A stretch of 64,000 bases of DNA. It comes from Chloroflexota bacterium. Its GTDB lineage: Bacteria; Chloroflexota; Dehalococcoidia; JACPQD01. The stretch's first letter is position 1, and the number at the start of each line of letters is the position of its first letter. The notes under the pieces were generated by a model. It did not search any database. It had not been told where the DNA came from and was given only the letters and a program-made list of their open reading frames with translations. The translations under genes and the position numbers were made by a program. This document shows positions 21,290-40,400 of this stretch, piece after piece. Location: contig JACPQD010000104.1 of assembly GCA_016190665.1 (NCBI GenBank), forward strand, positions 124,001 through 188,000, written 5' to 3'.

Positions 21290-21928
21290 TTGACACAAGC
21301 GGAAGGAGAGATAGAGATCCTTGATCCCCATGTCGAGCCGAAGCTGCGAACGTACCGGCTCGCTCCGCGTCCGGCAGACCTCAAGGGCAAGGTGATCGGC
21401 GTTCTGGAGAATACGAAGCCTAACGCCGCGCAGTTTCTCGATCAGCTTCAGAAGGCTCTCTCCGAGCGAGTCGAGCTTGCCGAGGTGATTATGAGGAGTC
21501 ACCACCCTGGCCGGCATGAAGGCGACATGACTCCCACCCTTCATGAGCTGGCAGAGCGTTGCGATGCGGTGGTCACTGGCGTCGGCATCTGAGGGGGATG
21601 CACCACGTTGAGTCTCAACGATGCGGTTCTGCTGGAGAAGCGGGGGATACCCACGGCCCTCCTCTGCGCCGGCAGTTTCTCCACCGTAGGGCAGCTTCAG
21701 GCTAAGGCCCTCGGGGTCCCGTGGCTCCCTATTGTCGTCGCCCCTTATCCCTTTGGCACTCTCTCCCCGGAGGCACTGAAGAAGGCGGCGGACGAGGCTA
21801 TCGATGAGGTTATCTATGTGCTGACCCAGCCGAGCGAGAAACTCGAGGCGGACTACTTCGAGCGCCACGTGAAAGGTCCTAACCCGTTGAAGGTCCCAAA
21901 GCAAGCCTCGGCAAAGGCCGGAATCTAG
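21290..21928 (+). CDS. UGSC-type selenoprotein A (stand-alone Sec domain), TGA = Sec
   Basis: One frame runs from TTG 21290, behind AAAGGAGG at 21276-21283, to the TAG at 21926-21928, interrupted only by TGA at 21590-21592 (codon 101). Around it the protein reads CDAVVTGVGI-U-GGCTT, and downstream LLEKRGIPT is conserved. Reading the TGA as selenocysteine gives a 212-residue protein with a U-x-x-C redox motif. A hairpin follows at 21606-21620. UGSC selenoproteins are known from marine metagenome surveys (recalled, not searched) with no established function that I know of. The next gene, 10 nt on, encodes module B, fused to this domain elsewhere in the window. Sec is strongly preferred over a pseudogene because six paralogues share the same TGA. 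Confidence 0.85.
21606..21620 (+). promoter_or_regulatory. SECIS-like hairpin of UGSC-A
   Basis: The stem is CGTTGA/TCAACG with loop GTC, beginning 14 nt after the TGA. It is placed where SelB-binding stem-loops lie in bacterial selenoprotein mRNAs. Confidence 0.65.
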
Positions 21929-21938
21929 CGATGGACAA

Positions 21939-22982
21939 ATGGCGATGAACCTGGCGTCAAGCAGGATCAAGGTTGGCAACTCCTACGAGGCGGTAGAAGA
22001 CTACCTCTACGAGCATGGCTGGACGGATGGACTGCCCATCGTGCCTCCAACTGAGGACCGTGTACAGCGCATGTTGGCATCTATGAAGCTCGCGCCAGAC
22101 GATGTAATTGGCGTGATTCCAACTGCCCAGGCGGAGGCTACGGCCGAGAAAGTGGCCATCAATGCGGTCATGGCCGGGTGTCGCCCCGAATACCTGCCCG
22201 TAGTTGTCGCCGCCCTTCGCGCCATGCTGGAGCCGGAGTTTGTGCTGGGCCGCGTCCAGGCCACCACCAACCCGGTCGCGCCCTTCCTTGTCGTCAGCGG
22301 GCCGATAAGAAAAGAGCTGGATATCAACTGCGGCCATGGCGCCCTTGGCCCGGGGAGGCGCTCCAACGCCACCATAGGACGGGCGGTGCGCCTGGTTCTC
22401 CTCAACATAGGAGGGGCGGTCCCCGGGGTGTCCGACATGTCCACTTTGGGGAGCTCGGCGAAGTACACCTGCTGCATCGGCGAAAACGAGGAGGCCAACC
22501 CCTGGGAGCCGCTCCACGTGGAGCGCGGCTTCAGCAAAGATGAGAGCACGGTGATGGTCTTCGGGGCGGTTTGCTTCCGGAACATCGTCGAATCGGAAAG
22601 CAGGAGCGCGGGCAACGTGCTGATCACCCTTGCCGGAGGCATGATTGGCCCCGGCGATTATGGCATGTGCTTCATGTCGGGACAACCGGTCCTCATCCTG
22701 GGCCCTGAACACGCCGAGATCTTCGGAAATGCGGGGATGGCAAAGGTAGATGTCAAAGAGGCGCTGTGGGAGAGGGCCTTTCTCCCCCTTTCCAGTTATG
22801 CCCCTGAACAGAGGGAATCGGTGGTCAATGTGTTGAAGCTGCCCGTCATCGAGGGGAAAATCCACTGCTGCCGCAGACCGGAGGACCTCGTCATCATCGT
22901 GGCCGGCGGCTCCGGCAGCCATTCTCAGTACGTCCAGAACTACTCCGGGCTTCCGGTTATCAAGAAGATAACCGACAGCTAG
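21939..22982 (+). CDS. Module B protein, separate partner of UGSC-A
   Basis: This 347-residue protein corresponds to the C-terminal part of the fused UGSC proteins in the window. Conserved blocks in order: YEHGWTDGLPIVPPT (about residues 25-39), NAVMAGCRPEYLP with the invariant Cys, VVSGPIRKELDINCG, TIGRAVRLVLLNIG, and CIGENEEANPWEPLHVERGF. No signal peptide or membrane segment is apparent. I do not know its activity. Proximity and fusion elsewhere imply that it works with the Sec domain, and the Cys in AGC-x-PE could react with the Sec (inference). The start is about 10 nt after the UGSC-A stop, with no strong ribosome site, so coupling is likely; ATG 21945 is an alternative. Confidence 0.85.
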   Translation: MAMNLASSRIKVGNSYEAVEDYLYEHGWTDGLPIVPPTEDRVQRMLASMKLAPDDVIGVIPTAQAEATAEKVAINAVMAGCRPEYLPVVVAALRAMLEPEFVLGRVQATTNPVAPFLVVSGPIRKELDINCGHGALGPGRRSNATIGRAVRLVLLNIGGAVPGVSDMSTLGSSAKYTCCIGENEEANPWEPLHVERGFSKDESTVMVFGAVCFRNIVESESRSAGNVLITLAGGMIGPGDYGMCFMSGQPVLILGPEHAEIFGNAGMAKVDVKEALWERAFLPLSSYAPEQRESVVNVLKLPVIEGKIHCCRRPEDLVIIVAGGSGSHSQYVQNYSGLPVIKKITDS

Positions 22983-23102
22983 ATAGGCGCCCCGATTATG
23001 ACCGGGCCTGTTCGCAGGGAGGCATCGGCCAGGAGCGGACTTCAACCGACGCTTGCTGGTATTGCTGCGACAAGTAGGCCATCCGCAGAAGAGGAGGTCC
23101 CG

Positions 23103-24781
23103 ATGAACACGAAGGCGGCTGCATTCTCCTCGATGGCTTGCATCCTCACTCTTCTGGGACTGCTGGTAGCCAGTTGCGCTCCGGCGGCCGCTCCGGCCGC
23201 CACAAAGGCGCCTCTCACACCAGCTCCGGCTCCAACCGTTCAGACGGGAGCCGCGCCCACGCCTGCCCCTAAAGCGGCGGGGCCCAGGACCGGCGGCGTG
23301 CTCACTGTGGCCAAACGGCTGCCCATACCCCACTTGGACATGCACCAGGAGATCACCGTCAACATGCAGGCGCCGCTGGCCCCCGTCTATAGCTGGCTCA
23401 TCCAGAACGACCCCATAGGGGATGAGAACAAGATAATAGGGGACCTGGCCAAGAGTTGGGATATTACCACGGACGGCCTCACGTACACCTTCAAGCTTCA
23501 AGATGGGGTGAAGTTCCACGATGGCAGGCCGCTGACCTCCACGGACGTGAAGGCCAGCCTGGACCGCATCATCTTCCCTCCGAGAGGCGTGGTTTCCCCC
23601 CGGCAGGGGCTGTATACGGCCGTGGACAAGATCGAGACCCCGGACGCGCTGACCGTGAAGATAAGCCTGAAGCGCGTCCAGGGTTCCTTCCTGCAGCTTC
23701 TGGCCTTGCAGCACAATTTCATCTTCCCCGCGCATATCTTGAAAGAAAAAGGCGACATGAAGAGAGATGTCGTGGGCACAGGTCCCTTCAAGTTTGTCAG
23801 CGAGATGCGCGGCGTATCTTTCAAGACGCAGCGCAACCCTGAGTACTTCGTAAAGGGGCTGCCCTACCTGGACGGGGTGACCTACTACGAAATCCCGGAT
23901 GACCGAAGCAGGATTGGGCTTTGCGGACCGGACAAGTCCTTGTGCTCCCCTCCTGGGTGGAACCCAGCGGCCCTCAAGTGAGCGAGTTGCTGAAACAGGA
24001 ACCGAAATTCGTGGCGCAGGAGGTGGTGCAGAGCGCCAACCTGGCGGTCAGCTTGAACCTCAGAGCCAAGCCCTGGGACGACATACGTGTAAGGCGGGCC
24101 GCCAATCTGGCCATTGACCGCGAGGCGGTGGCCAAGGTGGTGCGCGGCGGCTTCTATCCCGGATATGGCTATGTGGTCCCCAGGACGCCGTGGACTCTTC
24201 CCGAGGAGGAAATCAGGACTACTCCAGGGTTCCGGCAGCCGAAGGCCCCGGACGTCGCCGAGGCCAAGCGCCTCCTGGCCGAAGCGGGCTATTCTACTGG
24301 CCTCAAGACTACCCTGCTGGTGGCTTCCACCATCGCCAACAAAGAGGCCAGCGAGGCCCTTCAGAACGAACTCGCCAAGGTCGGCGTTGAAGTGACCATA
24401 CGAGTCGTCGAGCAAACCGTGCTCAATGAGTGGCGTCTCAAGCGCCAGTTTGAGGCTGCCATGAGCTCGGAGTCGCCGGTCCATTCTGACCCGGATGTGG
24501 TGCTGGGCGGATTCTACCTGACCGGTAGCCCCATGAACTACGGGGACTGGAGCAACGCCAAGTTCGACGAGCTTTTCGTTGCCCAGAGCACAACCTTAGA
24601 TATGGCGAAGCGGGTCGAAATAGTCAGGGAAATGCAAAGGATCATCCATCAGGAGGCGCCCAAGATCAGCCTGACCTGGGCCAAGCGCTGGGCGGTGTGG
24701 GCGCCGGAGGTGAAGAACTGGAAGGCTGGAATCAATCCGTACTATAACCACAAGATGGACCTCGTCTGGCTGGACAAGTAG
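23103..24781 (+). pseudogene. Family-5 solute-binding lipoprotein, SBP6, frameshifted
   Basis: The gene starts at ATG 23103 behind GAGGAGG with signal peptide and lipobox LVASC (Cys25). It reads as a normal receptor to IPDDRSRI and then loses frame near 23915-23920. The second part continues in the +2 frame (ALRTGQVLV onward) to VWLDK and the stop at 24781. Adding a single base in the GGG run at about 23916-23918 restores 560 codons, the family's usual length here. It may be a real inactivation or an assembly or homopolymer error. The mature protein is most like SBP9 (LDMHQEIT..., YPGYGYV-type central part). It follows the separate module B gene by about 120 nt. Confidence 0.85.
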
Positions 24782-24967
24782 CACGCATGCCTGCAGGAGA
24801 AGTCAGGGGCTTGTCCCCCGCCAGTGGAGTTTGGGCCTGGCAGGTCGGACTCGTCCGACGGCTTGGGACGGCTTGTTCTCCGGCCGGAGTTGGGGGGCTA
24901 CCCTGGGTTCCGGCGTGTTTGTTGGCTTACACAAGTCAGTGGATAGCGGCAAAACAGGAGGTCTACC
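24782..24967. repeat. Intergenic region with GTCGGAC hairpin
   Basis: The stretch between SBP6 and SBP7 contains an inverted repeat GTCGGAC-TC-GTCCGAC at 24844-24859. A related palindrome TCGGACGCGTCCGA occurs at 49203-49216, just upstream of UGSC-E. There is no T-run after it, so I do not call a terminator. Confidence 0.5.
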
Positions 24968-26644
24968 ATGCAGACCAGGAACTTGATGGCCAGTTGCTTC
25001 GCAATCGTGGCGCTCTTGCTGGCGGGCTGCGCCCCGCCAGCGGCGCCGGCGTCCGCTCCGAAGGCCGTGGCGCCAAAACCCACGACGGCCGCGACAACTA
25101 CAGCGCCGCCGCCGGGGTCCGCCGCGCCGGCACCAACGCCAAAAACAGCGGGAGAGCAGCCCCGATACGGTGGTTCTTTGGCCCTTCCCGCGGCCGGTGA
25201 CCCGCCAAACCTGGATATCCATAGAAACGTGGGGGGCGTCGTCTTCGGCCGGGTGGGGCCGATTTACAACGGCATAGTCCAGTACGACCAGAGCAACAGA
25301 GTTGTGCCTGACCTGGCGGAGCGCTGGGAGGCGAGCTCTGATGGCAAGGTCTATACTTTCTTCCTTCGCAAGGGCGTAACATGGCACGACGGCAAGCCTT
25401 TTACTTCAGCCGACGCGAAGTTCAGCCTGGAGAGGATTGGACAATATGCGGGTTTGTCACCGTTCACCGGGCCGGTAGACAATACGGAGACGCCTGATCA
25501 GGACACGCTGAAGGTAACCTTGAAGTATCGCCAGGCAGGGTACCTGCCTATCTTGGGTCATGGGAGGATCCTCATTGCGCCGAGGCATCTCGTCGAGGCC
25601 GAGAAGGACCTGAGGCGGGTTGCCATTGGGACTGGCCCCTTCAGGCTCAAGGAGTACCAGGCGGGAGTAAGCTTCAGGGTGGAGAAGAACAGGGAGTATT
25701 TCATCAAAGGACGTCCCTATCTAGATGAGGTTAGCTTCTACACAATAAGAGATGTGTCTACGAGGTTTGCTGCCTTCAGGACAAGAAGGGTCGACATCTA
25801 CGGCCATCCACCCACGAATGGCGAGCTGATGCGCACGCATGCGGATATTCTCAGGAGAGACACTCCTCAGGTGCTAGTGAGGCCTTACGGTTCAATGCAG
25901 GCATATGCTCTCATGCCGAATTGGGACAGGGCGCCCTGGAAGGATGTCCGTGTGAGGCGAGCTGCCTTTCTCGCCGTTGATCGTGAGAAGGGACTGGAGG
26001 TAGTATCAGAAGGCGTTGGAACCCTGGGGATAAGCGTTTTCTACGGCGAATGGGCCCTGCCAATGGAAGAACTGATGAAGGTGCCGGGCTTCAGGAAGCC
26101 CAAGGGCGAGGACATCGCCGAGGCGAAGCGTCTGCTGGCCGAGGCCGGCTATCCCGAAGGCTTGAGAACCACTTTGGTGCTGCGAGGAGACGTGCCGTTA
26201 GCCGAGAAGGCGGCAACATTCGTCAGCGAGCAGCTCTCCACGATCGGCATGGATCTGAGGCTCCAAATCCTTGACTATGGGGTCTACGTCGATGCAAGGC
26301 GTAGGGAAGACTACGATGTCATGGTGATGGTGGCCAACGTTGACCCCCTTGACCCCGACGCCAGTGGTGGTCGTTACATCTCCAGAAAGCTGGGTGCACC
26401 TTGGGCCAGCGGCGACGATGACAAAATACTGGAACTACTCAGCATGCAATCACAGGCAGCAACCGACGCAGAGCGGAAGAAGATAGTTTTCGCGCTTCAG
26501 CACAGGATCGCCGAGGTGGTGCCGCATATCATGATTGCCTGGCAAGGTTCATTCATCGCCTTCTGGCCTCGGGTGAAAGACTACACCGCGGAGAGTGGTA
26601 TCTTCGGGCACAACAAGCTGGAGGATATCTGGCTGGCACAATAG
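24968..26644 (+). CDS. Family-5 solute-binding lipoprotein, SBP7
   Basis: This 558-residue receptor has lipobox LLAGC (Cys21), a linker with several AP/TT repeats, and a domain starting EQPRYGGSLALP and ending DIWLAQ. It pairs with SBP10: both have DIHR, YNGIVQYDQ-type and FYGEWALP segments and a GH-NKLE C-terminus, suggesting similar ligands. AGGAGG precedes the ATG by 7 nt. It is the second of four consecutive receptor genes (SBP6-SBP9) without an enzyme between them. Confidence 0.92.
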   Translation: MQTRNLMASCFAIVALLLAGCAPPAAPASAPKAVAPKPTTAATTTAPPPGSAAPAPTPKTAGEQPRYGGSLALPAAGDPPNLDIHRNVGGVVFGRVGPIYNGIVQYDQSNRVVPDLAERWEASSDGKVYTFFLRKGVTWHDGKPFTSADAKFSLERIGQYAGLSPFTGPVDNTETPDQDTLKVTLKYRQAGYLPILGHGRILIAPRHLVEAEKDLRRVAIGTGPFRLKEYQAGVSFRVEKNREYFIKGRPYLDEVSFYTIRDVSTRFAAFRTRRVDIYGHPPTNGELMRTHADILRRDTPQVLVRPYGSMQAYALMPNWDRAPWKDVRVRRAAFLAVDREKGLEVVSEGVGTLGISVFYGEWALPMEELMKVPGFRKPKGEDIAEAKRLLAEAGYPEGLRTTLVLRGDVPLAEKAATFVSEQLSTIGMDLRLQILDYGVYVDARRREDYDVMVMVANVDPLDPDASGGRYISRKLGAPWASGDDDKILELLSMQSQAATDAERKKIVFALQHRIAEVVPHIMIAWQGSFIAFWPRVKDYTAESGIFGHNKLEDIWLAQ

Positions 26645-26731
26645 TAATTGGTTCGGCCGTCCCCTTTGCGAAAGGGAGAGGTTTGGTTTCGGCTTCGCCG
26701 AGTTAGGTTGTACATCGAAGGAGGTCTTGGA

Positions 26732-28417
26732 ATGATGAGATTTCTCATGACGGTCACATGCTTGACGGTCTTGGGCCTCTTGCTGGCGGGCTGCGCCCCG
26801 GCCCCCACGCCAACTCCTAAGCCACCGGTCGCCCCCGCTAAGTCGGAGGCCCCAGCGGCCAAGGCTCCTGTCGCCCCAGCGCCGCCGGCTCCCTCTCCAA
26901 AATCGGGCGCGGAGCAGCCGAGGTATGGAGGCGTTCTGAGCATCTCGCACGTCATAGATCCACCCTCGCTGGACATGCACCAGGAGATTGGCTTTGCCGG
27001 CAACGTGCTTCAGTCCGCTTACAGCGGCCTTACGCAGTTCAACCCCCAGAACCCTGAAGAGGTTATCGGCGACCTGGCCAGGAGCTGGGAGGTCGCTAAG
27101 GACGGCCTCACGTATACCTTCCGTTTCCACGAGAATGTCAAGTTTCACGATGGCTCCGCCTTCACGGCCGAGGATGCCCGCTTCAGCTTCGAGCGAATGA
27201 TGAATCCTCCCAGGGGGATCTTGTCGCCTCGTCGCGCCGAGCTGTCAGCCATCGGTACGGCGGAGGCTGCGGACAAAGATACCCTGAAGTTCATCCTGAA
27301 ACAGCCGGCGGCTGCCCTCCTCAATGTCCTTTCCCAGGGTTACATCGTTATCTATTCCAAGGCCTTCGTCGAGAAGAAAGGCCACATGAAGAATGACATC
27401 ATGGGAACGGGCCCTTATAAGCTTAAGAGTTATGCTGCCAATATCTCCCTCGAGTATGTCAAGAACCCCGACTACTTCGTGAAGGGGCGTCCCTACCTCG
27501 ATGGCATCACCTTCTACATCATCAGGGATACCGGGACGAGGCTGGCGGCTTTCCGCTCAGGGCGGGTGAAGCTTACTGGACCCGGAGAATCGGGGCCTGC
27601 GCCGTCGGGCGCCGAAACCATCAAGCGAACGCTCCCCCAGGCGGTGATAATGCCCTATCCCGCCAACTCCTTCGGCAATTTCATCCTGAATACTACGGAG
27701 AAACCGTGGAACGATATCCGGGCGCGGAAAGCAGTGCACCTGGCTATCGATCGACAAAAGGCCATCGACGTACTGGGTGAAGGCTTTGGAGAGATTGGCA
27801 CCAACATGCCCGGGGAATGGGGAATCCCCAAGCGGGAGTTGGAGAAAATGCCCGGTTGGCGACAACCGAAAGACGCTGATATCGCCGAGGCGAAGAGGCT
27901 CCTGGCTGAGGCCGGCTACCCCGATGGCGTGGCTCTGAAAAGTCTGGTAAGGGCGGAGAGGACCTTCGAGCAGTTGAGCACTTATGTAGCCGACCAACTG
28001 GCGAAGATAGGCATCAAGCTGGAGTTGGACGTCAAGGAGTTGGCCGTGCGTCAGAAACTGGTCAACGAGGGCGCCTTCAACTCCCATGCCACCATGAACT
28101 CCCTGCCCTATCCGGACCCGGAGAACCTGGTGCGCTTGTGGGCTGCCCCGGCGGGCGCCGATTGGGGCATGAACTGGGCGCGGCTCAGGGATGACAAGAT
28201 TTTCGATCTCCTTGACAAGCAGTCTCGCGCCCTCGACCCGGCGGAAAGAAAGAAGCTGGTGCGCGAGCTCGATCTCCGGATGATAGAGGTGGCGACCCGG
28301 CCGGTGGTCTGGTGGAAACAGTACATCGTGGCCCTGTGGCCGGAGGTCAAGGGCTACGGCAAGCGCAACAGCAATTACAGCTTCGAGAGGTACCAGGACA
28401 TCTGGCTGGCGAAGTAG
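26732..28417 (+). CDS. Family-5 solute-binding lipoprotein, SBP8
   Basis: The 561-residue product has lipobox LLAGC (Cys21) and a K/P/A linker ending at about residue 70, where EQPRYGGVLSISH starts. It ends DIWLAK. It has no close partner among the receptors here; the region NSFGNFILNTTEKPW replaces the FWMP type of the others. AAGGAGG at 26718-26724 gives the start at ATG 26732. The frame is open from 26648, but that part lacks signal-peptide character. The short leader shares the GGCTTCGCCGAG motif with the region at 53.1 kb. Confidence 0.92.
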   Translation: MMRFLMTVTCLTVLGLLLAGCAPAPTPTPKPPVAPAKSEAPAAKAPVAPAPPAPSPKSGAEQPRYGGVLSISHVIDPPSLDMHQEIGFAGNVLQSAYSGLTQFNPQNPEEVIGDLARSWEVAKDGLTYTFRFHENVKFHDGSAFTAEDARFSFERMMNPPRGILSPRRAELSAIGTAEAADKDTLKFILKQPAAALLNVLSQGYIVIYSKAFVEKKGHMKNDIMGTGPYKLKSYAANISLEYVKNPDYFVKGRPYLDGITFYIIRDTGTRLAAFRSGRVKLTGPGESGPAPSGAETIKRTLPQAVIMPYPANSFGNFILNTTEKPWNDIRARKAVHLAIDRQKAIDVLGEGFGEIGTNMPGEWGIPKRELEKMPGWRQPKDADIAEAKRLLAEAGYPDGVALKSLVRAERTFEQLSTYVADQLAKIGIKLELDVKELAVRQKLVNEGAFNSHATMNSLPYPDPENLVRLWAAPAGADWGMNWARLRDDKIFDLLDKQSRALDPAERKKLVRELDLRMIEVATRPVVWWKQYIVALWPEVKGYGKRNSNYSFERYQDIWLAK

Positions 28418-28542
28418 GGAGGAGGTTGGAGGTTGGAGGTTAGAGTGTCTATGGACAGGCGACGGAAGACGTAGGGGCGGTTTCGCGAACCGCCCTCGCC
28501 AGACGCCTCTCGATCTCTTCGCGGTAAGTAAGGAGGCACAGG
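28418..28542. repeat. Intergenic tandem repeat and hairpin
   Basis: Tandem copies of GGAGGTT lie at about 28421-28442. A perfect hairpin GGGCGGTT-TCGCG-AACCGCCC follows at 28475-28495. The hairpin lies 48 nt upstream of the SBP9 start. It is not followed by a T-run, so it looks like a dispersed repeat rather than a terminator. Confidence 0.5.
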
Positions 28543-30240
28543 ATGCTGGCCAGGAATTCGACCGTGGAAGTGTGTCTGTTTATGGTTGCCGTCCTTCTGG
28601 CGACAAGCTGCGCTCCGGCAGCGGCGCCAACGCCCCCTCCGAAGGCAGCGGCGGCTCAACAGAAAGCGGGCGCGCCGGCCGACACGCCGTCCAGAGCGCC
28701 AGCTTCCCCGTCAGCGACCGTGAAGCCCGCACCGGGGCAAGCGAGCTACGGGGGCATACTGACGACCGGTTTGAGGGTCACCATTCCGCATTTCGACACT
28801 CACCAAGTGCAGACCATCGGGGCCCAGTCCCCGTTTGCCTCGGCCTACAACCTGCTCATAGAGTATGACCCTCTAGATGAAACCAAGCTGAAGGGCGACC
28901 TTGCCGCCCGGTGGGAGGTCAGCGCTGACGCCCTGACGTACACCTTCCTGCTCAATGAGGGGGTCAAGTTCCACAATGGGAGGACGCTTACCTCAGAGGA
29001 CGTGAAGTTCAACCTGGACCGCATAGCGTTTCCTCCGAGGGGGATGCTGTCTGTCAGAGCCGACCTGTTTCGGTCCGTCGACAAAATAGAGGCGCCGGAC
29101 GCCAGGACCGTCAGGATAACCTTGAAGCGACCCCAACCATCGTTCCTGTCCACTGTGGCTTTGCCCCTCAACTTCATTTTCGCCCCCGAAGTCATCAAGG
29201 AGAAGGGCGACATGAAGAGGGATATCTTGGGGACAGGCCCTTTCAAGTTGCAGAGCTACACTGAGGGCGTGTCGATGAGGATGCAGCGGAACCCCGACTA
29301 CTTCGTCAAGGGACGTCCATACTTGGATGGCGTAACGACTTACATCATCGTCGATGAAACGGCGAGGATCGCGGCCCTGCGCACGAAGCAAGTGCTTCTG
29401 CTCCCGCTGCATGCGGAGGTGACCGCTCCGCAGGCGGAGGCGCTTCAGAAAACGGAGCCGAGGCTCAAGGTCGAGAAGAAGGTGCAAGTCGCCATGATCG
29501 CGCTCCTCCCAAATCTGCAGAAGAGACCCTGGGATGACGTTCGGGTGCGCCAGGCGGTTAACCTGCTGATCGACCGCGAGGCGGCCGCAAAGGTGGTCCG
29601 CGCCGGAGGACATTACCCCGGCTATGGGTACGTGCAACCCGGATCGCCGTGGGCGCTGGGAGACCAGGAGTTGATGAGCATGCCGGGCTTCAGAAAACCG
29701 AAGGACCAGGATGTGACCGAGGCGAAGAGACTTCTTGCGGAAGCAGGTTACCCCAGCGGGTTCAAGACCACTCTCATGGCCAGCACCAGCGTGCACGTCA
29801 AGGAGGCGGCTGAGTTCAGCAAGACTGAGCTGGCCAAGGCAGGCGTAGAAGCCGAGATCCGCATCCTGGAGACGGGCGTGTACAGAGACAGGCAACTTGA
29901 GGGGGCTTTCGACATCACTGCTGTGGCCGATACCTTGACGGACCCCGACCCTGATTTCGTTCTGGGTGAGCTTTATCTCCCTGGAAGCGCCAGAAATCCC
30001 AGCAAGTGGACGAACAGTGAGTATGAACGACTGTTCACCATTCAGAGCATGGCGACCGACGCTGCCAAGCGCAAGGAGACGGTGGCGGAGATGCAAAGGA
30101 TCCTGCACCGTGAGGCGCCGAGAACCATCGTAACCTGGATAGGCCGCATAGCGGTCTGGTGGGTTGAGCTGAAGGACTGGAGACCGGGCATCAGCGTGTT
30201 CCACAACAGCAAGTTCCAGGACGTGTGGCTGGCCAGGTAG
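28543..30240 (+). CDS. Family-5 solute-binding lipoprotein, SBP9
   Basis: This 565-residue receptor has a signal peptide MLARNSTVEVCLFM with lipobox LATSC (Cys23). Its domain opens GQASYGGILTTGL and ends DVWLAR. It is closest to frameshifted SBP6: both have a HYPGYGYV/SIPGYGYV-like central segment and HREAPR/HQEAPK near the end, so it may be the intact counterpart. AAGGAGG precedes the ATG. UGSC-B begins 23 nt after its stop, so the two are most likely on one transcript. Confidence 0.92.
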   Translation: MLARNSTVEVCLFMVAVLLATSCAPAAAPTPPPKAAAAQQKAGAPADTPSRAPASPSATVKPAPGQASYGGILTTGLRVTIPHFDTHQVQTIGAQSPFASAYNLLIEYDPLDETKLKGDLAARWEVSADALTYTFLLNEGVKFHNGRTLTSEDVKFNLDRIAFPPRGMLSVRADLFRSVDKIEAPDARTVRITLKRPQPSFLSTVALPLNFIFAPEVIKEKGDMKRDILGTGPFKLQSYTEGVSMRMQRNPDYFVKGRPYLDGVTTYIIVDETARIAALRTKQVLLLPLHAEVTAPQAEALQKTEPRLKVEKKVQVAMIALLPNLQKRPWDDVRVRQAVNLLIDREAAAKVVRAGGHYPGYGYVQPGSPWALGDQELMSMPGFRKPKDQDVTEAKRLLAEAGYPSGFKTTLMASTSVHVKEAAEFSKTELAKAGVEAEIRILETGVYRDRQLEGAFDITAVADTLTDPDPDFVLGELYLPGSARNPSKWTNSEYERLFTIQSMATDAAKRKETVAEMQRILHREAPRTIVTWIGRIAVWWVELKDWRPGISVFHNSKFQDVWLAR

Positions 30241-30263
30241 CTGACCGGCAAGGAGAACGAGAA

Positions 30264-32000
30264 GTGAGCGAACCCGTCTACGAGGTGGTCTGGCCGCTGG
30301 GCGCGTCTATGTACAATCCGCAAGCGACCGCTCGAGAAGTCACCGACTTGAGCGGGAAGACAGTCTGCCAGTTGTGGGACTGGGTCTTCCGGGGCAATGA
30401 GATATTCCCCGCCGTGGCGGAGATTCTCTCCAAACGTTATCCGGGCATCAAGTTCGTCCACTACGACGTCTTTGGGAACACCCACAGCCCCAAGGAGAGG
30501 GAGATTGTGGCTCATCTTCCTGAGATGCTCCGCGACCAGGGCTGTGACGCGGTTATCTCCGGGGTTGGCGCTTGAGGCAGTTGCACGCCCGCCGTGGTGC
30601 GGGCAAGCGCGGTTGCCGAGAAGGCCGGGGTGCGCAGCGTCTCCCTCGTATCCACGGGTTTTGTGCGGCAGGCTCATGCCATCGCTAAAGCATTGGGAGT
30701 CGAGAACCTCTCCATAGCCGAATATCCCGGCGTTCCTATGATTGACAGTCCGGAGCAACTGCTTGAGAAGGTAGAACAAGTCCTGGTCACAAAGATTGTC
30801 GACGGGCTGGGCGCCCCGGCGAAGGAGAGCAGCAAACCTTCTGAGCCGCAACCCCGGGACATTGTGTACAGGGGGACGCTGAACGAGGTGCAGGACTTCT
30901 TTTATCGTAACATGTGGACGGAAGGGCTGCCGGTCATCCCGCCGACGATCGACAGGGTGGAGGAATTCCTGAGATTCACTGAGCGCTCCGGAGATGAAGT
31001 GATCGGCGTACTCCTGCCCGAGAATCGCCAGGCCACTGTCTGGAACGTCGCGGTCAACGGAGTGATGGCCGGTTGTCGACCGGAGTACATGCCGCTGCTG
31101 CTGGCAGTAGTGGAGGCGATCTCCGACCCGGAGTTCCGCATTGAGGACGCGGGCAGCACTCCCGGGTGGGAGCCGCTCATCGTTCTGAACGGCCCCATCA
31201 TCAAGCAGTTGGACTTCAACTACGGCTCCGGCGTGATGCGGGTGGGTCGGCAGGCCAATACCAGCATAGGCCGGTTTCTGCGGCTGTACATGCGAAACGT
31301 GGCAGGGCTGCGCATTCCGCCCGGGGACACCGACAAAGGGAGCATTTGTCAGACGTTCAACGTGGCGCTGGCTGAGAACGAAGATGCCGTTGCGGAGATC
31401 GGCTGGCAGCCTTTCAGCGTGGACCGAGGCTTCAAGGCCGGCGACAACGTGGTGACTGTGCAAAGCTGTATCAGCATCAGTCCGCCCTGCTACAGCGGGG
31501 GGACCACACCGCAGGAGCACATGGAGACTATCACGGAGATCATCGGACGCCGGTCCGTGGCCTACTGGACGGGCGTCGGCGCCAAAGAGGGCAGAATGCA
31601 CGTGTTGCTTGCGCTGAGCCCGAGCGTGGCCGGAGTGATAGCCAGGGGCGGCTGGAGCAAGGATGACGTGCGTCAGTACCTCTACGAGAATGCGAAGGTT
31701 CCTGCCGGGCTGGTGGAGAAGCTTACTCGCCAGGCGGGCCCTTCCACGTTCACCTTGCGCCGGTTCGTTGAAGAAGGGTTGATATCGAAGGAGTTCGACC
31801 GATCGGATGATCCTGACAGGTTGGTGCCCGTTTTCCTGAGGCCGGACTTCATCGAAATCGCTGTGAGCGGCGACCCCGGCAGGAACCAGAGCAAGGGATA
31901 TGTGCAGAACCAGAAACAAGGGCCGCCGGTCAGCAAGAGGGTAGCTCTGCCGCCCAATTGGGAGCGGATGATCAAGGAGGATGCAGCCAAGGTATCATGA
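30264..32000 (+). CDS. UGSC selenoprotein B fused to module B, TGA = Sec
   Basis: The frame from GTG 30264 (AAGGAG 8 nt upstream) to the stop at 32000 contains one TGA at 30573-30575 (codon 104). Read as Sec, the protein has 578 residues. It starts with DLSGKTVCQLWDWVFRG and reaches CDAVISGVGA-U-GSCTPA, the canonical UGSC motif. A Rossmann-like half then ends in IAEYPGV. Module B begins near residue 205, with GLPVIPPT at about 221 and VMAGCRPEYMP after it. It belongs with UGSC-D and UGSC-F (U-G-[ST]-C-T-P-A group). The stop overlaps an ATG of the MmgE/PrpD gene, implying one operon with SBP9. Confidence 0.88.
30587..30604 (+). promoter_or_regulatory. SECIS-like hairpin of UGSC-B
   Basis: A perfect six-pair stem GCCCGC/GCGGGC with loop CGTGGT begins 12 nt after the TGA. 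It is the strongest of the seven stems, with G-containing apical loop. Confidence 0.75.
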
Positions 32001-32026
32001 AAGATTCTCAAGCACGAAGGAGAATC

Positions 32027-33433
32027 ATGGACCCCGAAGCCGCTTTCGCCAAGCTCATCATCGAGCAGACCTTCGATGGACTGCCGACGGCAGCCGTCGA
32101 GAAGGCTAAGACGGAAATCCTGGACACTCTGGGTGTCACGCTGGCGGGTAGTGGCGCCGAAGGCGCTGAGAAGGTCGTGGCACTGGCCCGGGACCTCGGC
32201 GTCAAGCCGGAAGAAAGCTCGGTGATCGCCTACGGCATCAAGGTCCCCGCAACGCACGCCGCTTTGGCCAACGCCTTTATGGCCCGCAGCGTGGACTACG
32301 ACGACTGCCATGATCTTGCCAGACTCCATGCCGGCGGCGTGGTCATATCGGCCGCCTTCGCCACCGCGGAGCGCAAGGCCGAAGGTCCCGAAGAGCGCAA
32401 GCGAATCGGGAGCGGCGTCAGCGGCAGGGAATTCATCACTGCTGTAGTGCTGGGCGTTGAGGTCATGAGCCGGCTTGGCCTGGCCAGGCAGGAGGACCGG
32501 TGGGCGGGCTGGGCTGCCACAGTGCTCTATGGCTGCTTCGGCGCCGCCGCCGCCTCAGCGCGGCTTCTCGGACTGAGCGAAGAACAGGTGTTGAACGCTC
32601 TGGGAATCGCCTACGGCAGGGCCGCAGGCAACCAGCAGTCAATGAGGGAAGGAGTCCTCACCAAGAACCTCGATGTCGGGGGCGCAGCCCAGGGAGGCGT
32701 GTTCGCCAGCCTGGCGGCGATGAGAGGCCTTACCGGCGCACATCGATGTTTCACCGGCGACCTGGGCATATTCAAGCTGTATCACAAAGGCGCTTATGAC
32801 CCGGTGAAGCTCACCGAAGGACTGGGCGAGACCTTCGAGATCTCCAATTTGGGTTTCAAACCGTATCCGTGCTGTCGGTTCAACCACACCTTCATCGATC
32901 TGGCTATTGCCCTCCGGCAGGAGCACGAGATAGAGCCGGAGGACATCGAGGAAGTGGTCTGCTACATCGACCAGGAGCCGCACCTGGAATTCCACCCTCT
33001 TGAGGAGAAGCAGAACCCCATCACCGTGACCGAGGCCCAATTCAGCGTTCCCTACTGCGTTGCCACTGCCCTGATAAACGGGGCCGTTCGCCTGGATGAT
33101 TTCAGGCCATCGGCCATCGCCGATCCGCGCGCGCTCGCCTTGGCGCGACAGGTGACGCCGAAGCTCGATACAACGTTATACCGAATGAAGGAAATCCCGC
33201 CAGCCGTCGTCGAAATTCGAACGAAGAACGGGGTTTATGCCGGGCGCACCGAACACCCTTATGGCGATCCGAATAAGCCCATGGCACAGGAAGCGCTGGT
33301 CCGCAAGTTCTTCGATTGCGCCGCGCACGCGAGGAAACGACTTTCAGAGCGCGATATATCGAAGGTGATGGACATGGTAGGCAAATTGGAGGAACTCGAC
33401 GACGTCGCGGAAGTGATTCGAATCCTGAGTTGA
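32027..33433 (+). CDS. MmgE/PrpD family protein
   Basis: The 468-residue protein belongs to the MmgE/PrpD family, which includes 2-methylcitrate dehydratase and itaconate-related enzymes acting on small carboxylates in the cytoplasm. Typical features are the N-terminal helical region with ILDTLGVTLAGSG, AFMARSVDYDDCHD, the glycine-rich AYGRAAGNQQS, and a second domain with KPYPCCRFNH. Length is normal. The start at 32027 follows GAAGGAGAATC; an upstream ATG at 31997 overlaps the UGSC-B stop. No other propionate-pathway gene is close, so a methylcitrate role is not supported by context. It may handle a hydroxyacid taken up through one of the adjacent receptors. Confidence 0.88.
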   Translation: MDPEAAFAKLIIEQTFDGLPTAAVEKAKTEILDTLGVTLAGSGAEGAEKVVALARDLGVKPEESSVIAYGIKVPATHAALANAFMARSVDYDDCHDLARLHAGGVVISAAFATAERKAEGPEERKRIGSGVSGREFITAVVLGVEVMSRLGLARQEDRWAGWAATVLYGCFGAAAASARLLGLSEEQVLNALGIAYGRAAGNQQSMREGVLTKNLDVGGAAQGGVFASLAAMRGLTGAHRCFTGDLGIFKLYHKGAYDPVKLTEGLGETFEISNLGFKPYPCCRFNHTFIDLAIALRQEHEIEPEDIEEVVCYIDQEPHLEFHPLEEKQNPITVTEAQFSVPYCVATALINGAVRLDDFRPSAIADPRALALARQVTPKLDTTLYRMKEIPPAVVEIRTKNGVYAGRTEHPYGDPNKPMAQEALVRKFFDCAAHARKRLSERDISKVMDMVGKLEELDDVAEVIRILS

Positions 33434-33491
33434 CGTGTTGCGATTCACGTGAGCATTTCCTGGCGACCATCATGAGGAAAGGGGTCCAAAG

Positions 33492-35189
33492 ATGAAGACA
33501 AGAAAGTCGCTGATAACGGCCAGTTGGTTAACGCTCCTGGGTCTGCTTGCGGCGAGTTGTGCGCCGGCTCCGGCGGTCGCGCCCACTGCGAAGGCGCAGG
33601 CTACTGTTCCCACTGCGGCGCCGGCTTCGCCCACGTCCACGTCCGTGGCTGCGCCCAGCCAGAAGTCGGCGGCGCCTGCCCCGACTCCAAAGCCAGCGGC
33701 GGAACAGCCGAAGTACGGCGGTTCTTTGTTTCTCGCCCTCCCTTCAGACCCCCCACACCTCGACATCCACAGGAGTGTGACCCACGCACTCTTCTCACCG
33801 GTGGGAACAATCTACAACGGCGTAGTTCAATTCGACCAGAGCAGCAAGGTGGCGGCGGATCTGGCAGAAAGGTGGGAGGTGAGCCCCGACGGGAAAGTGT
33901 ATACTTTCGTTCTGCGCCAGGGGGTGAAATGGCATGACGGCAATCGATTTACTGCGGAAGATGCCAGGTTTAGCCTGGAAAGAATCAGAGAATATGAAGG
34001 CCTGAAGTTTATTACCGATGCCATCGACAAGGTGGAGACGCCAGATGACCAGACGGTGCGGATTACAATGAAGTATCGTCAGGCGGGGTTCCTACCGATG
34101 CTCGGGCACGGGAGAGCGCTGGTGGCGCCGAAGCACATCATAGAGGCTAAGAAGGACCTCAGGCGGGACGTTATCGGGACCGGTCCCTTCAAGTTGAAGG
34201 AGTATTCATGGGGCGTGAGCTTCAGGGTGGACAAGAACACCGAGTATTTCCTCAAGGACCGCCCCTATCTGAGTACCATCACCTTCTACATAATGAAGGA
34301 CTCGGCGACCCGGTTCGCAGGCTTCAGGACAGGAAGGCTCCAGATTTTCGGCCATCCTCCGACTCACACCGATCTGCTTCGTGCGCGTGCGGATGTCCTG
34401 AAGAAGGAGATGCCTCAAGTTACATTGAGATCCTACGAGGTGCTCCAAGCTTACGGCCTTGTGCCGAATTGGAACCGGCCGCCATGGAATGATGTCAGGG
34501 TACGCCGCGCCGCTTTTCTCGCTGTGGACCGTGAAAAAGGCATCGAGGTTGTGTCTGAAGGGGTTGGAGTAGTCGGGATAAGCATGTTTTATGGTGAGTG
34601 GGCGCTTCCGAAGGAAGAAATGGAAAAGATGCCCGGCTTCAGGAAGCCCAAGGACCAGGACATTGTCGAGGCTAGGCGACTGCTTGCTGAGGCTGGCTAT
34701 CCGCAAGGCTTCAAGTCTCCAATACTGGCTCGATCGGCAATCGCCTTGTACGAGAAGGCAGCCGTCTTCATGATAGACCAGCTATCCAAGGTGGGTATAG
34801 ATCTCACCCTTCAGGTCATGGAGTATGCCATCATCGACGATATGAGAATGAAGCTCAACTACGATACGATGCTGCTGGCGAGTACCATGGCCTTGAATGA
34901 CCCAGACGTTGCCGGCCGGAGCATCTCCTGGAAACTGGGTGGGCAAACGGCGAGCGGTGATGACGAGAAGATCCTGGAGCTGTACGCAAAGCAATCTGCG
35001 GCGCCAACTCTCGAGGAGCGCAGGAATCTGGTCTTCGAATTACAGCGCCGAATTGCTGAGGTCGTGCCTCACGTCTTGATCGGCTGGCAGAATTCCTTCA
35101 TAGCCTTCTTGCCCCAGGTTAGGAACTACACTGCGACTGGCGGTGTCTACTCTCATAACAAACTCGAGGAAATCTGGTTGGCCAATTAG
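33492..35189 (+). CDS. Family-5 solute-binding lipoprotein, SBP10
   Basis: This 565-residue receptor has lipobox LAASC (Cys23) and a linker to about residue 70 followed by EQPKYGGSLFLA. It ends EEIWLAN. SBP7 is its near relative, with shared FYGEWALP, NREYF/NTEYF and HNKLE segments. An AAAGGGG site lies upstream of the ATG. The UGSC-C gene starts 37 nt after its stop. Confidence 0.92.
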   Translation: MKTRKSLITASWLTLLGLLAASCAPAPAVAPTAKAQATVPTAAPASPTSTSVAAPSQKSAAPAPTPKPAAEQPKYGGSLFLALPSDPPHLDIHRSVTHALFSPVGTIYNGVVQFDQSSKVAADLAERWEVSPDGKVYTFVLRQGVKWHDGNRFTAEDARFSLERIREYEGLKFITDAIDKVETPDDQTVRITMKYRQAGFLPMLGHGRALVAPKHIIEAKKDLRRDVIGTGPFKLKEYSWGVSFRVDKNTEYFLKDRPYLSTITFYIMKDSATRFAGFRTGRLQIFGHPPTHTDLLRARADVLKKEMPQVTLRSYEVLQAYGLVPNWNRPPWNDVRVRRAAFLAVDREKGIEVVSEGVGVVGISMFYGEWALPKEEMEKMPGFRKPKDQDIVEARRLLAEAGYPQGFKSPILARSAIALYEKAAVFMIDQLSKVGIDLTLQVMEYAIIDDMRMKLNYDTMLLASTMALNDPDVAGRSISWKLGGQTASGDDEKILELYAKQSAAPTLEERRNLVFELQRRIAEVVPHVLIGWQNSFIAFLPQVRNYTATGGVYSHNKLEEIWLAN

Positions 35190-35225
35190 AGTGGCGACCA
35201 CCTGAAATGCTGAGGAGGTAAAGAT

Positions 35226-35795
35226 ATGAGCGGTCCAACAGGGGTAAAACAGGTGCGAATCAGGAGATCTTTTGTGCCCGTTTTGCTGCCGGAGAACGCT
35301 TCAGTGAGGCGAGAGGCAAAGCTGGCGGAGAGGCTCCCCTCCCTTGACGGCGCCACGGTGGGCTTCTATAACAACCGGAAGGCTTTCGCCGCCAACGCTC
35401 TGCCCGCGGTGGACAAGGTCCTTAAAGAGAGAGGCGTGCGCGAGACGTTTGTGGCGTGGGGAACCAGCTCGAACAGGCCTTCCGACGAAATGCTTTCCAG
35501 TCTCGCCCAGGCGGACGCGGTTGTCTTGGCGGGAGCAGATTGAGGCGCCTGTACCTCGTGGCTGCTGTACGCAGCGATAGAGCTCGAAAAAAGGGGCGTA
35601 CCCACAGTCTCCTTTGTCGCCAGCAACTTCTTGCCCACCGTACGATCCACGGCAAAACGCAGAGGATTTGGAAATCTGAATGTCATCGAGATCCACGGGT
35701 CCCCACTTGACCGGGAGAATGTGGAGCAGCAGGTCTTCACTAAGAGACAGCAGATTACAAGCTCCCTGTCTTCGCCCGAGAAGGCGCTGTCGTAG
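35226..35795 (+). CDS. UGSC-type selenoprotein C (stand-alone Sec domain), TGA = Sec
   Basis: The frame from ATG 35226 (GAGGTAAAG upstream) to the TAG at 35793-35795 has one TGA at 35541-35543, codon 106. Read through it gives 189 residues with ADAVVLAGAD-U-GACTSW, followed by AAIELEKRGVPTVSF. This is the U-G-[GA]-C-T group with UGSC-A, E and G. It stands alone, and its module B is the next gene, 76 nt downstream. The C-terminus after SEKALS is shorter than in UGSC-A. Sec is inferred from the paralogues and from the downstream hairpin. Confidence 0.83.
35561..35575 (+). promoter_or_regulatory. SECIS-like hairpin of UGSC-C
   Basis: The stem is GCTGC/GCAGC with loop TGTAC, beginning 18 nt after the TGA. 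This is the most distant and one of the weaker of the seven. Confidence 0.5.
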
Positions 35796-35871
35796 GCTCT
35801 TTGCTCACAGGGATGGGCAGGATTCACAGGATAGGATGATTTCTTGCTGAGAAAGGAACGCCAGGTACGCT

Positions 35872-37077
35872 ATGGATGACACACTGCGGGCGCCGGCAAT
35901 GCCACAGCCGGAGATGATTGATGAAATCACAGTTGACGATGATGGCCTCCCCCATATCGTTTCGGAGCCGGACGCGGCGCAGGTATTTGATGAATTCACC
36001 AGGCGTGGGTGGACCGATGGCTTGCCCATCATACCTCCCACAGAGCCACGAGTGCGCGCCATGTTGGCCGCTACCCAAAGGGCTCCAGACGAGGTCCTGG
36101 GGGAGATGCCTCCCAGCCAGCAAGAGATAACCGTCGAGCTGGTCGCCATCAACGCGGTGATGGCGGGTTGCGTCCCTGAGCAGCTCCCCCTAGCGCTGGC
36201 AATAATTGAGGCCGCCCTGGAGCCAACATTCAACCTTCGCATGGCCCTGGTCACCACCGTCTCCACATGGCCGGTGGCGATTGTCAACGGTCCGATTGTC
36301 AAAGAGCTCTCTTTGAATCACGGCTGGGGTATCCTCGGATCCGGCTTTCGCTCCAACGCGACCATTGGCAGGGTCCTGACTTTATGTGCTACCACGATCG
36401 GCGGTATCCGGCCAGGCTTCGGTGAGAACAAACCCACGTGCACTCCCCTCCGATACGGGCTCTGTCTCGCTGAAGACGAGGAAGTGTCTGGTCTCTTGCC
36501 GATCCACGTGGAGCGGGGTTTCAAGCCAGAGGACAGCGTCGTTACGCTTATCGAATTGACGAATCCGGTCATGTTGCATTTTCCAAGGACCACGGCAGCG
36601 GCTTCAGCAGTTGGCTGGCTTTCCGCGATAGCCTCTCCCATCGCCCAGATCGTGGCGACTGCCGGAGCCGCACCCGATATCGGCCGGGAAGGCAGCAAGC
36701 AGCTACTGATGATTCCGCCGGTGATGGCACAGCGTCTGGTGAAGGATGGCTGGAGCAAGGACGATATCCGTCACTTCCTTTATGAGAACGCTCGAATGCC
36801 GAGAGCGGAAATACACCGGAGGCGAACGCACCCCAGCATGCCCCAGGACGTCACGGAGACTGAGATCAATATCCGGTATGACACCGTCCCTCGATGGGTA
36901 AGGGCGCAAATGTTGGAACCTGCGCACACTGTGCTAAACGAGATGGTCCCCGTTATGAGAGAGCCAGAGGACCTTCTGCTTCTCGTCGGCGGGGCGCGCG
37001 AGGAAACCTGCCAGGGCGCCTTCTTCCCGGGTCACGATCACTGGCAGGAAGTGGTCAGCAAGAAGATCGAAACATAG
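35872..37077 (+). CDS. Module B protein, separate partner of UGSC-C
   Basis: This 401-residue protein has the module B order of motifs: FTRRGWTDGLPIIPPT, NAVMAGCVPEQLP (invariant Cys), IVNGPIVKELSLNHG, NATIGRVLTLCATTIGG, then AEDEEVSGLLPIHVERGF in place of the more usual GENE-ANPW block. An N-terminal extension of about 40 residues (MDDTLRAPAMPQPEM) is absent from the UGSC-A partner. No secretion signal is seen. With the UGSC-A locus it is the second case where the two halves of the fused protein occur as neighbouring genes. Activity unknown. Confidence 0.85.
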   Translation: MDDTLRAPAMPQPEMIDEITVDDDGLPHIVSEPDAAQVFDEFTRRGWTDGLPIIPPTEPRVRAMLAATQRAPDEVLGEMPPSQQEITVELVAINAVMAGCVPEQLPLALAIIEAALEPTFNLRMALVTTVSTWPVAIVNGPIVKELSLNHGWGILGSGFRSNATIGRVLTLCATTIGGIRPGFGENKPTCTPLRYGLCLAEDEEVSGLLPIHVERGFKPEDSVVTLIELTNPVMLHFPRTTAAASAVGWLSAIASPIAQIVATAGAAPDIGREGSKQLLMIPPVMAQRLVKDGWSKDDIRHFLYENARMPRAEIHRRRTHPSMPQDVTETEINIRYDTVPRWVRAQMLEPAHTVLNEMVPVMREPEDLLLLVGGAREETCQGAFFPGHDHWQEVVSKKIET

Positions 37078-38684: not shown

Positions 38685-40400
38685 ATGTACAGTGCACTGA
38701 GCCCTCTTGGCGAACCAACCATCGAAAAGGCGTCTGCTGCCCCGCGCATTTCAGACTTGAGTGGGAAAACAGTCTGCGAGGTGTGGAATGGAGTCTTCAG
38801 GGGCGACATCACGTTTCCCATAATCCGGGAGCTGCTCCAGAAGCGATATCCAGGCGTCAAGGTGATCCCGTACACCGAGTTTCCTATACCGGACAATCGA
38901 GGAACCACTGCGGAGCTGTTGCGGCGTGTGGATGCGATAGTGGCCCAGGCTATCCAAAGAGGCTGCGACGCTATGATAGTTGGCAATGGTTTCTGAGGGA
39001 CCTGCACGCCCGCGAGTACGCGGCCAGCCGTAGCAGCAGCCAAAGCCGGTATCCCTGCTGTACCGGTCGTAGGCACTACTTTTTTCCGCACAGCCTCCCT
39101 ACTGACATCCTGGGCTGGCGTGCCTGACCTGGGGATTGCCGAATATCCGGGTGCGATCGCACTTCATACGGATGCGGAGATAAGAGAGAATCTTGAGAAG
39201 GTGGCCTTCGACCGGATCATTGAAGGATTGACCAAGCCGGTGAGAAGATCAAGTGTAGCGAGGGAAGGAAAAACGAAGTCAGGGGAAATCGCGTTCGCGG
39301 GCACACTTGAGGAAGTAAACAGGTTCTTCTATGAGAAGGGATGGACGGACGGACTCGCCATAATCCCCCCTACGCCAGAGGCAGTTGAGGAGTTCCTGAA
39401 GTATACGGACCGCTCACCCGATGAGGAAATAGCCGTACTCCCCCAGGCAAACCTGCGCGCTACCCCACGGAATATTGCCGCCAATGCCGTGATGGCAGGG
39501 TGCCGCCCGGAGTTCATGCCGTTGCTGATTGCAGCCGCGGAAGCGATAGGCGACCCGGAGTTCCAGCTAATGAGCATCGGTAGCACCGGCTGCAAGACAC
39601 CCTGGCTGCTGGTGAACGGACCGATTGTGAAACAGTTAGGCATCGAGTACGGCGTGGCGCTTCGCTCGCGTGGCCCGAACCCAGCCATTGGCCGCGCCTT
39701 TGGATTGATGATCCACAACATAGCTGGCTTCAGACCGGGAGAAACATGGATGGGGACCTGGGGCTACTACCTGCCCTTCGTCCTGGCTGAGGATGAAGAT
39801 GCTTGTGATGAGATTGGCTGGGAGCCTTACCACGTGACATATGGTTTCAGCAGAGATGCGAGCACGGTGACGGCGAGAACGACCGTAAACTGGGGTGGCC
39901 AGGGGTGTCCCAGAGCGCCCGTTGCCCCCTCGGCCGAGTCCATTCTCAAAGTTGCCTGTATGCATACGGCGCGGAATACCATGACCGAGTATGCTCTGCG
40001 TTTCGGACCGCGCAACATGGTTGCTGTGCTCCTGACGCGGCCCACCGCCAAAATCCTGGCCGATGCTGGCTACTCAAAGCGCGATGTGGCGAAGTATGTG
40101 TGGGAGAATACGAGGATCAAAGTCGGCGAAATAAACAACATCCTGCAGGCCTGGACCGGCGCCTTCAACGGTATCGGTTTTAGAATACACGACATAGTGG
40201 AGGAAGGCAGACTGCCAAAGTGGTTCGACGTGGGCCCGGAGGAGACCATCCCGATGTTCCCCAGTGCGGACCTGTTGGACATCGTCGTATGCGGAGACGT
40301 GCACAGGGACAAGGTGATGAGCCTCTGGTGTAATTATAACCGGCCCGTCACTAGGGAAGTAAGACTGCCTGCGGGTTGGGGTAAGCTCAAGGGAGGCTAA
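38685..40400 (+). CDS. UGSC selenoprotein D fused to module B, TGA = Sec
   Basis: The frame from ATG 38685 to the TAA at 40400 contains one TGA at 38994-38996 (codon 104), giving 571 residues with Sec. Local sequence is CDAMIVGNGF-U-GTCTPAS, then RPAVAAAKAGIPAV. It is very close to UGSC-F, and both begin MYSALSPLGEPT/MVYNVLSPVGEPT. Module B includes GWTDGLAIIPPT, NAVMAGCRPEFMP and a WGYYLPFVLAEDED block instead of the GENE motif. The start at 38685 is preferred to 38676 because GGAGG lies directly against the earlier ATG. It overlaps the end region of the FAD oxidoreductase. Confidence 0.88.
39010..39023 (+). promoter_or_regulatory. SECIS-like hairpin of UGSC-D
   Basis: The stem is CCGCG/CGCGG with loop AGTA, beginning 14 nt after the TGA. 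Position matches UGSC-F, whose loop differs by one base. Confidence 0.6.

Follow-up and report, generated by a model that had tools for sequence, protein, structure and literature searches.

The window analysed here, 64,000 nucleotides corresponding to bases 124001-188000 of contig C99 (350 kb), derives from a Chloroflexota bin of 107 contigs and 5.0 Mb. It raises the question of whether the selenocysteine (Sec) domain of UGSC-family proteins works with a second domain, termed module B here, that is encoded behind it, and, if so, what such a pair might do. Our analysis assigns this orphan selenoprotein family a near-obligate partner of no known fold; the genome that carries them holds more copies than any reported selenoproteome. 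When TGA is read as Sec, seven UGSC-type Sec sites appear in the window. In five copies (UGSC-B, D, E, F and G), module B follows the Sec half in one frame; UGSC-A and UGSC-C consist of the Sec domain alone, with module B encoded by the next gene on the same strand. The genes are as follows:

21290..21928, + strand: UGSC-A, Sec domain alone, with UGGCT; PF24696, E = 3.2e-46; in-frame TGA at 21590-21592
21939..22982, + strand: A′, module B gene with AGCRPE; an open reading frame (ORF) that aligns with the C-terminal halves of the fused copies
30264..32000, + strand: UGSC-B, fused, with UGSCT at 30573 and AGCRPE; PF24696, E = 1e-28; the frame continues into module B
35226..35795, + strand: UGSC-C, Sec domain alone, with UGACT, an ATG start and the Sec codon at 35541; PF24696, E = 4.7e-32
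35872..37077, + strand: C′, module B gene with AGCVPE; an ORF that aligns with the fused copies
38685..40400, + strand: UGSC-D, fused, with UGTCT at 38994 and AGCRPE; identified by in-frame TGA and alignment
49259..50893, + strand: UGSC-E, fused, with UGGCT at 49550 and AGCRPE; in-frame TGA; the AlphaFold query (Sec98, AGC Cys269)
55840..57546, + strand: UGSC-F, fused, with UGTCT at 56152 and AGCRPE; in-frame TGA, module B in frame
58775..60427, + strand: UGSC-G, fused, with UGACT at 59078 and AGCLPE; in-frame TGA, module B in frame

Fusion in five loci and adjacency in two had been described in an earlier note made from the DNA letters, and both are confirmed by the reading frames and coordinates. 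The gap between the Sec gene and the module B gene is 11 bases for A/A′ and 77 bases for C/C′, and the TTG start of UGSC-A is preceded by AGGAGG. The note had also claimed that the separate genes at 21939 and 35872 match the C-terminal part of the fused copies and that every module B of the window carries AGC-x-PE. Alignment bears out both statements: A′ and C′ match, along their own length, the C-terminal portion of UGSC-B, D, E, F and G, identity to A′ is 31-45%, and the seven module B sequences, aligned over their length, share 45 invariant columns, among them M-A-G-C-x-P-E, with x being R (A′, B, D, E and F), V (C′) or L (G).

Searches of this genome with the PF24696 and module B profiles each returned at least 150 matches. 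An exhaustive scan of 1.62 Mb of the bin, picked for UGSC or module B matches, yielded 175 UGSC domains, of which 169 carry TGA as the Sec codon, along with 177 copies of module B; the first 800 kb, made up of long runs of four contigs, holds 69 of each. A module B lies within 3 kb on the same strand for 171 of the 175 UGSC genes (116 fused, 55 adjacent), and this pairing is far beyond chance. The layouts comprise 114 fusions with UGSC first, 2 fusions in the reverse order, 33 adjacent pairs in which UGSC precedes module B and 22 in which it follows. Four UGSC genes are without a module B in the sampled stretch, two of them at contig ends, and 12 of the 177 module B copies are unpaired by nearest neighbour, several being second copies beside a pair or copies at contig ends. 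The module B tree requires at least 8 changes between the fused and separate states, or 13 when gene order is counted. Moreover, a mirror-tree comparison of the 55 unfused pairs gave a correlation of r = 0.69 between the pairwise distances of UGSC and those of module B, compared with a maximum of 0.19 in 500 shuffled pairings, which indicates that the separate genes evolve as fixed partners (r = 0.92 for fused pairs). Two module B copies, C56:23490-24599 and C94:7469-8539, contain an internal TGA or TAG and are probably decayed genes.

The same association is observed in other genomes. Among 301 Chloroflexota genomes, UGSC was found in 32, module B in 32, both in 31 and either in 33 (Fisher p = 6e-40). 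The earlier note had named frequent module B genes in genomes devoid of UGSC as a finding that would count against partnership; only 1 of the 32 module B genomes lacks a UGSC match, and the partnership is not refuted by this check. A second scan covered GTDB species genomes and yielded 80 named loci, distributed over Chloroflexota (SAR202 among them), Rokubacteria, Beta- and Deltaproteobacteria, Binatia, Poribacteria and Nitrospinota, together with one Bacillus and one haloarchaeon; an order-level genome search covered this genome alone. In the 80 loci, 78 of 89 module B copies are beside or fused to UGSC, at a median gap of 34 bases, and 74 of these 78 are linked to a UGSC with Sec. Six well-flanked module B copies have no UGSC neighbour. 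They were considered as counter-examples to partnership and set aside, as all six host genomes hold UGSC elsewhere. On plasmids of cultured hosts, NCBI labels the neighbour ‘UGSC family (seleno)protein’ and module B ‘hypothetical protein’.

An AlphaFold model of the fused UGSC-E, built with 34 sequences, has a predicted local distance difference test score (pLDDT) of 91 and a predicted template modelling score (pTM) of 0.92, the latter suggesting that the two domains adopt a settled arrangement and supporting an interface between them. Mean-field coupling analysis of 249 pairs placed 24 of the top 150 couplings between the domains; these are scattered, invariant columns give no signal, and the result is not used as evidence. 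The earlier note had predicted a physical partnership from fusion and adjacency. Fusion in both orders, adjacency, correlated evolution, co-occurrence and a confident two-domain model strongly support that prediction, and we consider it very likely that UGSC and module B are physical partners.

The two partners differ in how far they can be related to known families. The Sec halves of the window are members of the UGSC family (PF24696/NF041046) by Pfam, with E values of 1e-28 to 1e-46 for UGSC-A, B and C. With TGA read as Sec, UGSC-A, B and C score 101-158 bits against PF24696, above its gathering score of 25 bits, and 57.5 to 115.6 bits against NF041046, a narrower model than that of Pfam, for which they fall below the equivalog cut-off of 125 bits. 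PF24696 is matched by 32 of the 34 alignment members, the other two being module B alone. By contrast, module B, a distinct and so far unnamed domain of roughly 350 residues, is covered by no family model and shows no clear fold match. Its 81 members gave no Pfam or NCBIfam match above the curated cut-off, only scattered chance matches, and searches of PDB sequences and PHROGs returned none. Modelled alone, it reaches a pLDDT of 94.8 and a pTM of 0.93; no confident fold match to this model was found in the PDB (best Foldseek E = 0.075), and the best VIA-align match, with Z = 6.5, covers residues 208-337 only, a third of the chain. Fumarase and aconitate decarboxylase were rejected as relatives of module B, and dihydroxyacid dehydratase as a relative of the fused model, the matches being partial and of low Z.

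In 2008, Zhang and Gladyshev (PMC2398784) reported from ocean metagenomes that UGSC can be fused to an unidentified conserved domain (UGSC/Unknown_1), and module B probably matches that domain. In contrast to the earlier description, the partner is near-obligate here, can also be encoded by its own gene upstream or downstream of UGSC and co-evolves with it, and one genome contains at least 169 Sec copies. Neither a near-obligate partner of UGSC nor a function for UGSC was described in the literature that we found.

Sec decoding in this genome was assessed next to the copy number. Profile searches identified SelB (353 bits), SelA (568 bits) and SelD (386 bits); SelD (C56:50475-51407) itself contains one in-frame TGA and is a selenoprotein. 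TGA occupies the same Sec site in 169 of the 175 UGSC copies, giving at least 169 UGSC selenoprotein genes in the bin. The 45 bases after the Sec TGA have a mean folding energy of -17.2 kcal/mol, against -10 to -13.5 at other positions of these genes (n = 169), which fits bacterial selenocysteine insertion sequence (SECIS) hairpins. Global reassignment of TGA was ruled out, because TGA serves as a normal stop codon in many of these genes and terminates 43 of the 171 module B frames in the paired set. In comparison, the largest bacterial selenoproteomes in a 2026 review comprise 57 and 63 genes (PMC13188914), and a survey of 5200 genomes gives 26 and 33 for the UGSC-containing protein, which we read as organisms and genes, respectively (PMC5029168). 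A mixed or contaminated metagenome bin, for which contamination is estimated at 6.1%, could in principle inflate such a count. However, none of the 171 paired UGSC domains is more than 90% identical to another, so strain mixing does not explain the copy number; contig C99 alone carries 25 copies, and UGSC clusters are spread over many contigs of the one bin. An artefact of this kind is therefore highly improbable, and this bacterium probably makes more extensive use of selenium enzymes than any described so far.

The model of the UGSC half resembles flavodoxin, PurE, CheY and B12-binding-like alpha/beta folds, with Z of about 9-12. A thioredoxin-like fold, supposed in the 2008 survey together with a redox role (PMC2398784), is not among the best matches, a listing that does not exclude it. 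The second cysteine (Cys) of the UxxC site is present in 168 of 173 UGSC domains. TIGR01917, the model for glycine reductase selenoprotein B, is matched by 16 of the 34 members (best E = 2.6e-5), and weak matches extend to PrdB (2.2e-4) and GrdH (7e-4); no match to PF07355 was found among UGSC members, and the cut-offs of TIGR01917, TIGR01918 and TIGR04483 were not reached. With the GrdB/PrdB systems (TIGR01917, NF040795, TIGR04483, PF07355), UGSC and module B have in common the UxxCT site, these profile similarities, the need for a second protein, a neighbourhood of transport genes and, beside some clusters, thioredoxin genes. They differ in scoring below the curated cut-offs, in having module B rather than GrdE/PrdA (PF09338) as the partner, and in including Cys types, in Roseovarius, haloarchaea and Arthrobacter. 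As part of the joint explanation that we favour by a modest degree, the UGSC half would be a flavodoxin-like domain, related in its UxxC site to the Sec sites of GrdB, GrdH and PrdB.

The role of the AGC cysteine of module B bears directly on how the two domains would cooperate. Beyond the window, AGC is not universal, being present in 165 of 171 paired copies of this genome and in 185 of 190 copies of a mixed set, in which it is the only Cys conserved in nearly all. The earlier note had proposed that this residue may be the resolving or the substrate-linked thiol for the Sec. If it resolved the Sec, forming a selenenylsulphide across the two domains, its place among the most conserved residues of module B and its retention in Cys-type homologues would be accounted for, and loss of one residue should relax the other. 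The opposite is observed. Five copies in three lineages (C62:25397, C101:25267, C58:14973, C11:30145 and C20:14064; GCSGVWT, ADSGVTV and VGGSN among the sequences) have lost UxxC and kept AGC, and six copies in two lineages (five with AGG in one clade, one with AGS) have lost AGC and kept Sec in UGGC, UGSC or UGAC. Sporomusa termitida (L204:7323-9047) adds a fused pair that has lost the UxxC site (DMGTSS) and kept AGC, with a flavin adenine dinucleotide (FAD)-dependent oxidoreductase adjoining. Because each residue is kept where the other is lost and the UGSC domain has a resolving residue of its own in the UxxC Cys, we regard a resolving role of the AGC Cys as improbable, and this part of the proposal is not supported.

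For the substrate-linked part of the proposal, placed within module B, a substrate-handling role is preferred. The AGC Cys could cooperate with the Sec without forming a bond to it, as a covalent anchor, a nucleophile or a metal ligand, a reading to which we give about even odds and which is compatible with, and refines, the joint explanation. It is consistent with the near-invariance of the residue, its retention when Sec is lost and its position among other invariant residues of A′ (N143, G147-R148 and E182). Furthermore, the partner subunit of proline and glycine reductases carries a Cys-derived substrate-binding group, pyruvoyl (PMC3091704). However, the AGG clade of five copies, if functional, manages without this Cys, and a Cys-derived cofactor would be hypothetical for a domain unrelated to GrdE/PrdA by profile. 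As a separate observation, both active-site positions of one fused copy (C101:30913-31467; UGTUT) are encoded by TGA, and this site may hold two Sec residues.

The surroundings of the UGSC genes offer indications of what the pair might act on. Fourteen SBP_bac_5 solute-binding genes are interleaved with the UGSC genes between 6509 and 52990 of the window, and for most of these no permease was noticed nearby:

24968..26644, + strand: SBP_bac_5 solute-binding lipoprotein (PF00496, E = 1.6e-72), one of the 14
6509, 9393, 11371, 15137, 19161, 22998-24781, 26648, 28543, 33492, 40450, 42967, 47442 and 51122: the other 13 SBP_bac_5 genes

The gene at 15137-17002 matches PF00496 with E = 2.8e-72, and the rest of the set was assigned by similarity within the ORF list together with the profile. 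A frameshift or an assembly error breaks the gene at 22998-24781 into two frames (22998-23981 and 23921-24781). In the 800-kb sample, 108 SBP_bac_5 genes were found, and 63 of the 69 UGSC genes have one within 3 kb, compared with a mean of 44 and a maximum of 61 in 1000 shuffles. Loci in haloarchaea and Roseovarius have solute-binding genes of the tripartite ATP-independent periplasmic (TRAP) type. Other neighbours of UGSC encode coenzyme A (CoA) transferases, dehydrogenases, MmgE/PrpD, aldehyde:ferredoxin oxidoreductase, old yellow enzyme (OYE)-type proteins and FAD enzymes. On Arthrobacter, Roseovarius and Variovorax plasmids, trxB, once as trxB-trxA, occurs in a cluster with module B and a Cys-type UGSC.

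These neighbours, trxB and the relation to GrdB/PrdB point to an enzyme that acts reductively on small organic compounds taken up from outside. On balance, we lean towards UGSC and module B being two parts of one GrdB/PrdB-like reductive enzyme. For catalysis, substrate binding by module B, the electron donor and a catabolic role, we infer the following scheme. Module B probably binds and positions the substrate. The selenolate of UGSC would attack a polarized C-X bond, or an oxidized group, of the small organic molecule held by module B, and the UxxC cysteine would release the product, as does the Cys at this position in the proposed D-proline reductase mechanism of Sec attack and Cys release (PMC3091704). 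Reduction of the resulting selenenylsulphide would fall to a dithiol donor, for instance thioredoxin. The paralogues, most of which lie near an SBP gene, would then be substrate-specific versions in a catabolic system.

Several observations weigh against this scheme. The relation to GrdB is weak, with all matches below curated cut-offs (602 bits for TIGR01917). A GrdE/PrdA partner (PF09338) was searched for in this genome and not found, and module B was rejected as a relative of GrdE/PrdA by profile comparison (hhalign probability 0.2%). Because GrdE/PrdA is absent and module B is unrelated to it, the pair is not a glycine or proline reductase; by analogy, it may act in a similar way. Only 1-2 of the 80 mostly Sec-type loci have a thioredoxin reductase gene nearby. 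The supporting count of TctC-type solute-binding genes, the kind present in proteobacterial loci, is 32 of the 80 foreign loci and is not set against a matched background. A few copies persist after losing the Sec/Cys site. Finally, no tRNA-Sec passed the Rfam cut-off in the bin, an incomplete assembly in which the best candidates are tRNA-Ser/Leu.

Alternatively, the UGSC–module B pair could be a peroxidase or a detoxifying thiol oxidoreductase, and the expansion a stress response rather than part of catabolism. Many redox selenoproteins have UxxC sites, the 2008 guess of a thioredoxin-like fold and a redox role (PMC2398784) is in keeping with this, and so are the trxB neighbours of the Cys-type clusters. 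However, the best fold matches are flavodoxin-like, the neighbours are solute-binding proteins, CoA transferases, dehydrogenases and MmgE/PrpD, and more than 160 diverged paralogues per genome fit substrate specialization better than stress defence. We therefore consider this alternative unlikely and retain the reductive enzyme as the preferred explanation. In its most far-reaching form, which we put forward tentatively and hold somewhat less probable than the reductive enzyme itself, the pair would constitute a new two-domain selenoenzyme class with a partner fold not yet seen, multiplied in one lineage into more than 169 substrate-specialized versions, each with its own uptake proteins, and forming a catabolic system that depends on selenium.

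A further parallel is FarB/FarE, the fluoroacetate reductase of Synergistota (PMC10838667), in which a GrdB-like Sec protein, a partner and a dedicated transporter serve one small molecule, with eight grdB genes in one genome. FarE is GrdE-like, whereas module B is not, and the scale here is about 20 times larger. This GrdB/GrdE-like pair has been proposed to cleave the C-F bond of fluoroacetate (PMC10838667), illustrating that such sites can serve different substrates.

Since 2008, UGSC has been known as one of the most frequent selenoprotein families of aquatic metagenomes. With its partner named, this orphan protein becomes an enzyme that can be tested, and its two parts can be produced together; the Cys-type pairs of culturable hosts bypass the selenium problem, and the neighbouring solute-binding proteins can help to find substrates. 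The copy number amounts to nearly three times the selenoprotein genes of the largest reported bacterial selenoproteome (63) and would alter ideas on the size of bacterial selenoproteomes and the limits on Sec use.

Two further observations concern individual members. In Bacillus dakarensis (L127:4398-6260), the UGSC–module B fusion has an extra NifU-like C-terminal part, and one member of alignment set A2 matches PF01106 (E = 0.0019). On a Paracoccus ferrooxidans plasmid, the UGSC gene (L206:7396-7965) is annotated as two short hypothetical ORFs split at the Sec TGA, and selB lies 3.3 kb downstream of module B.

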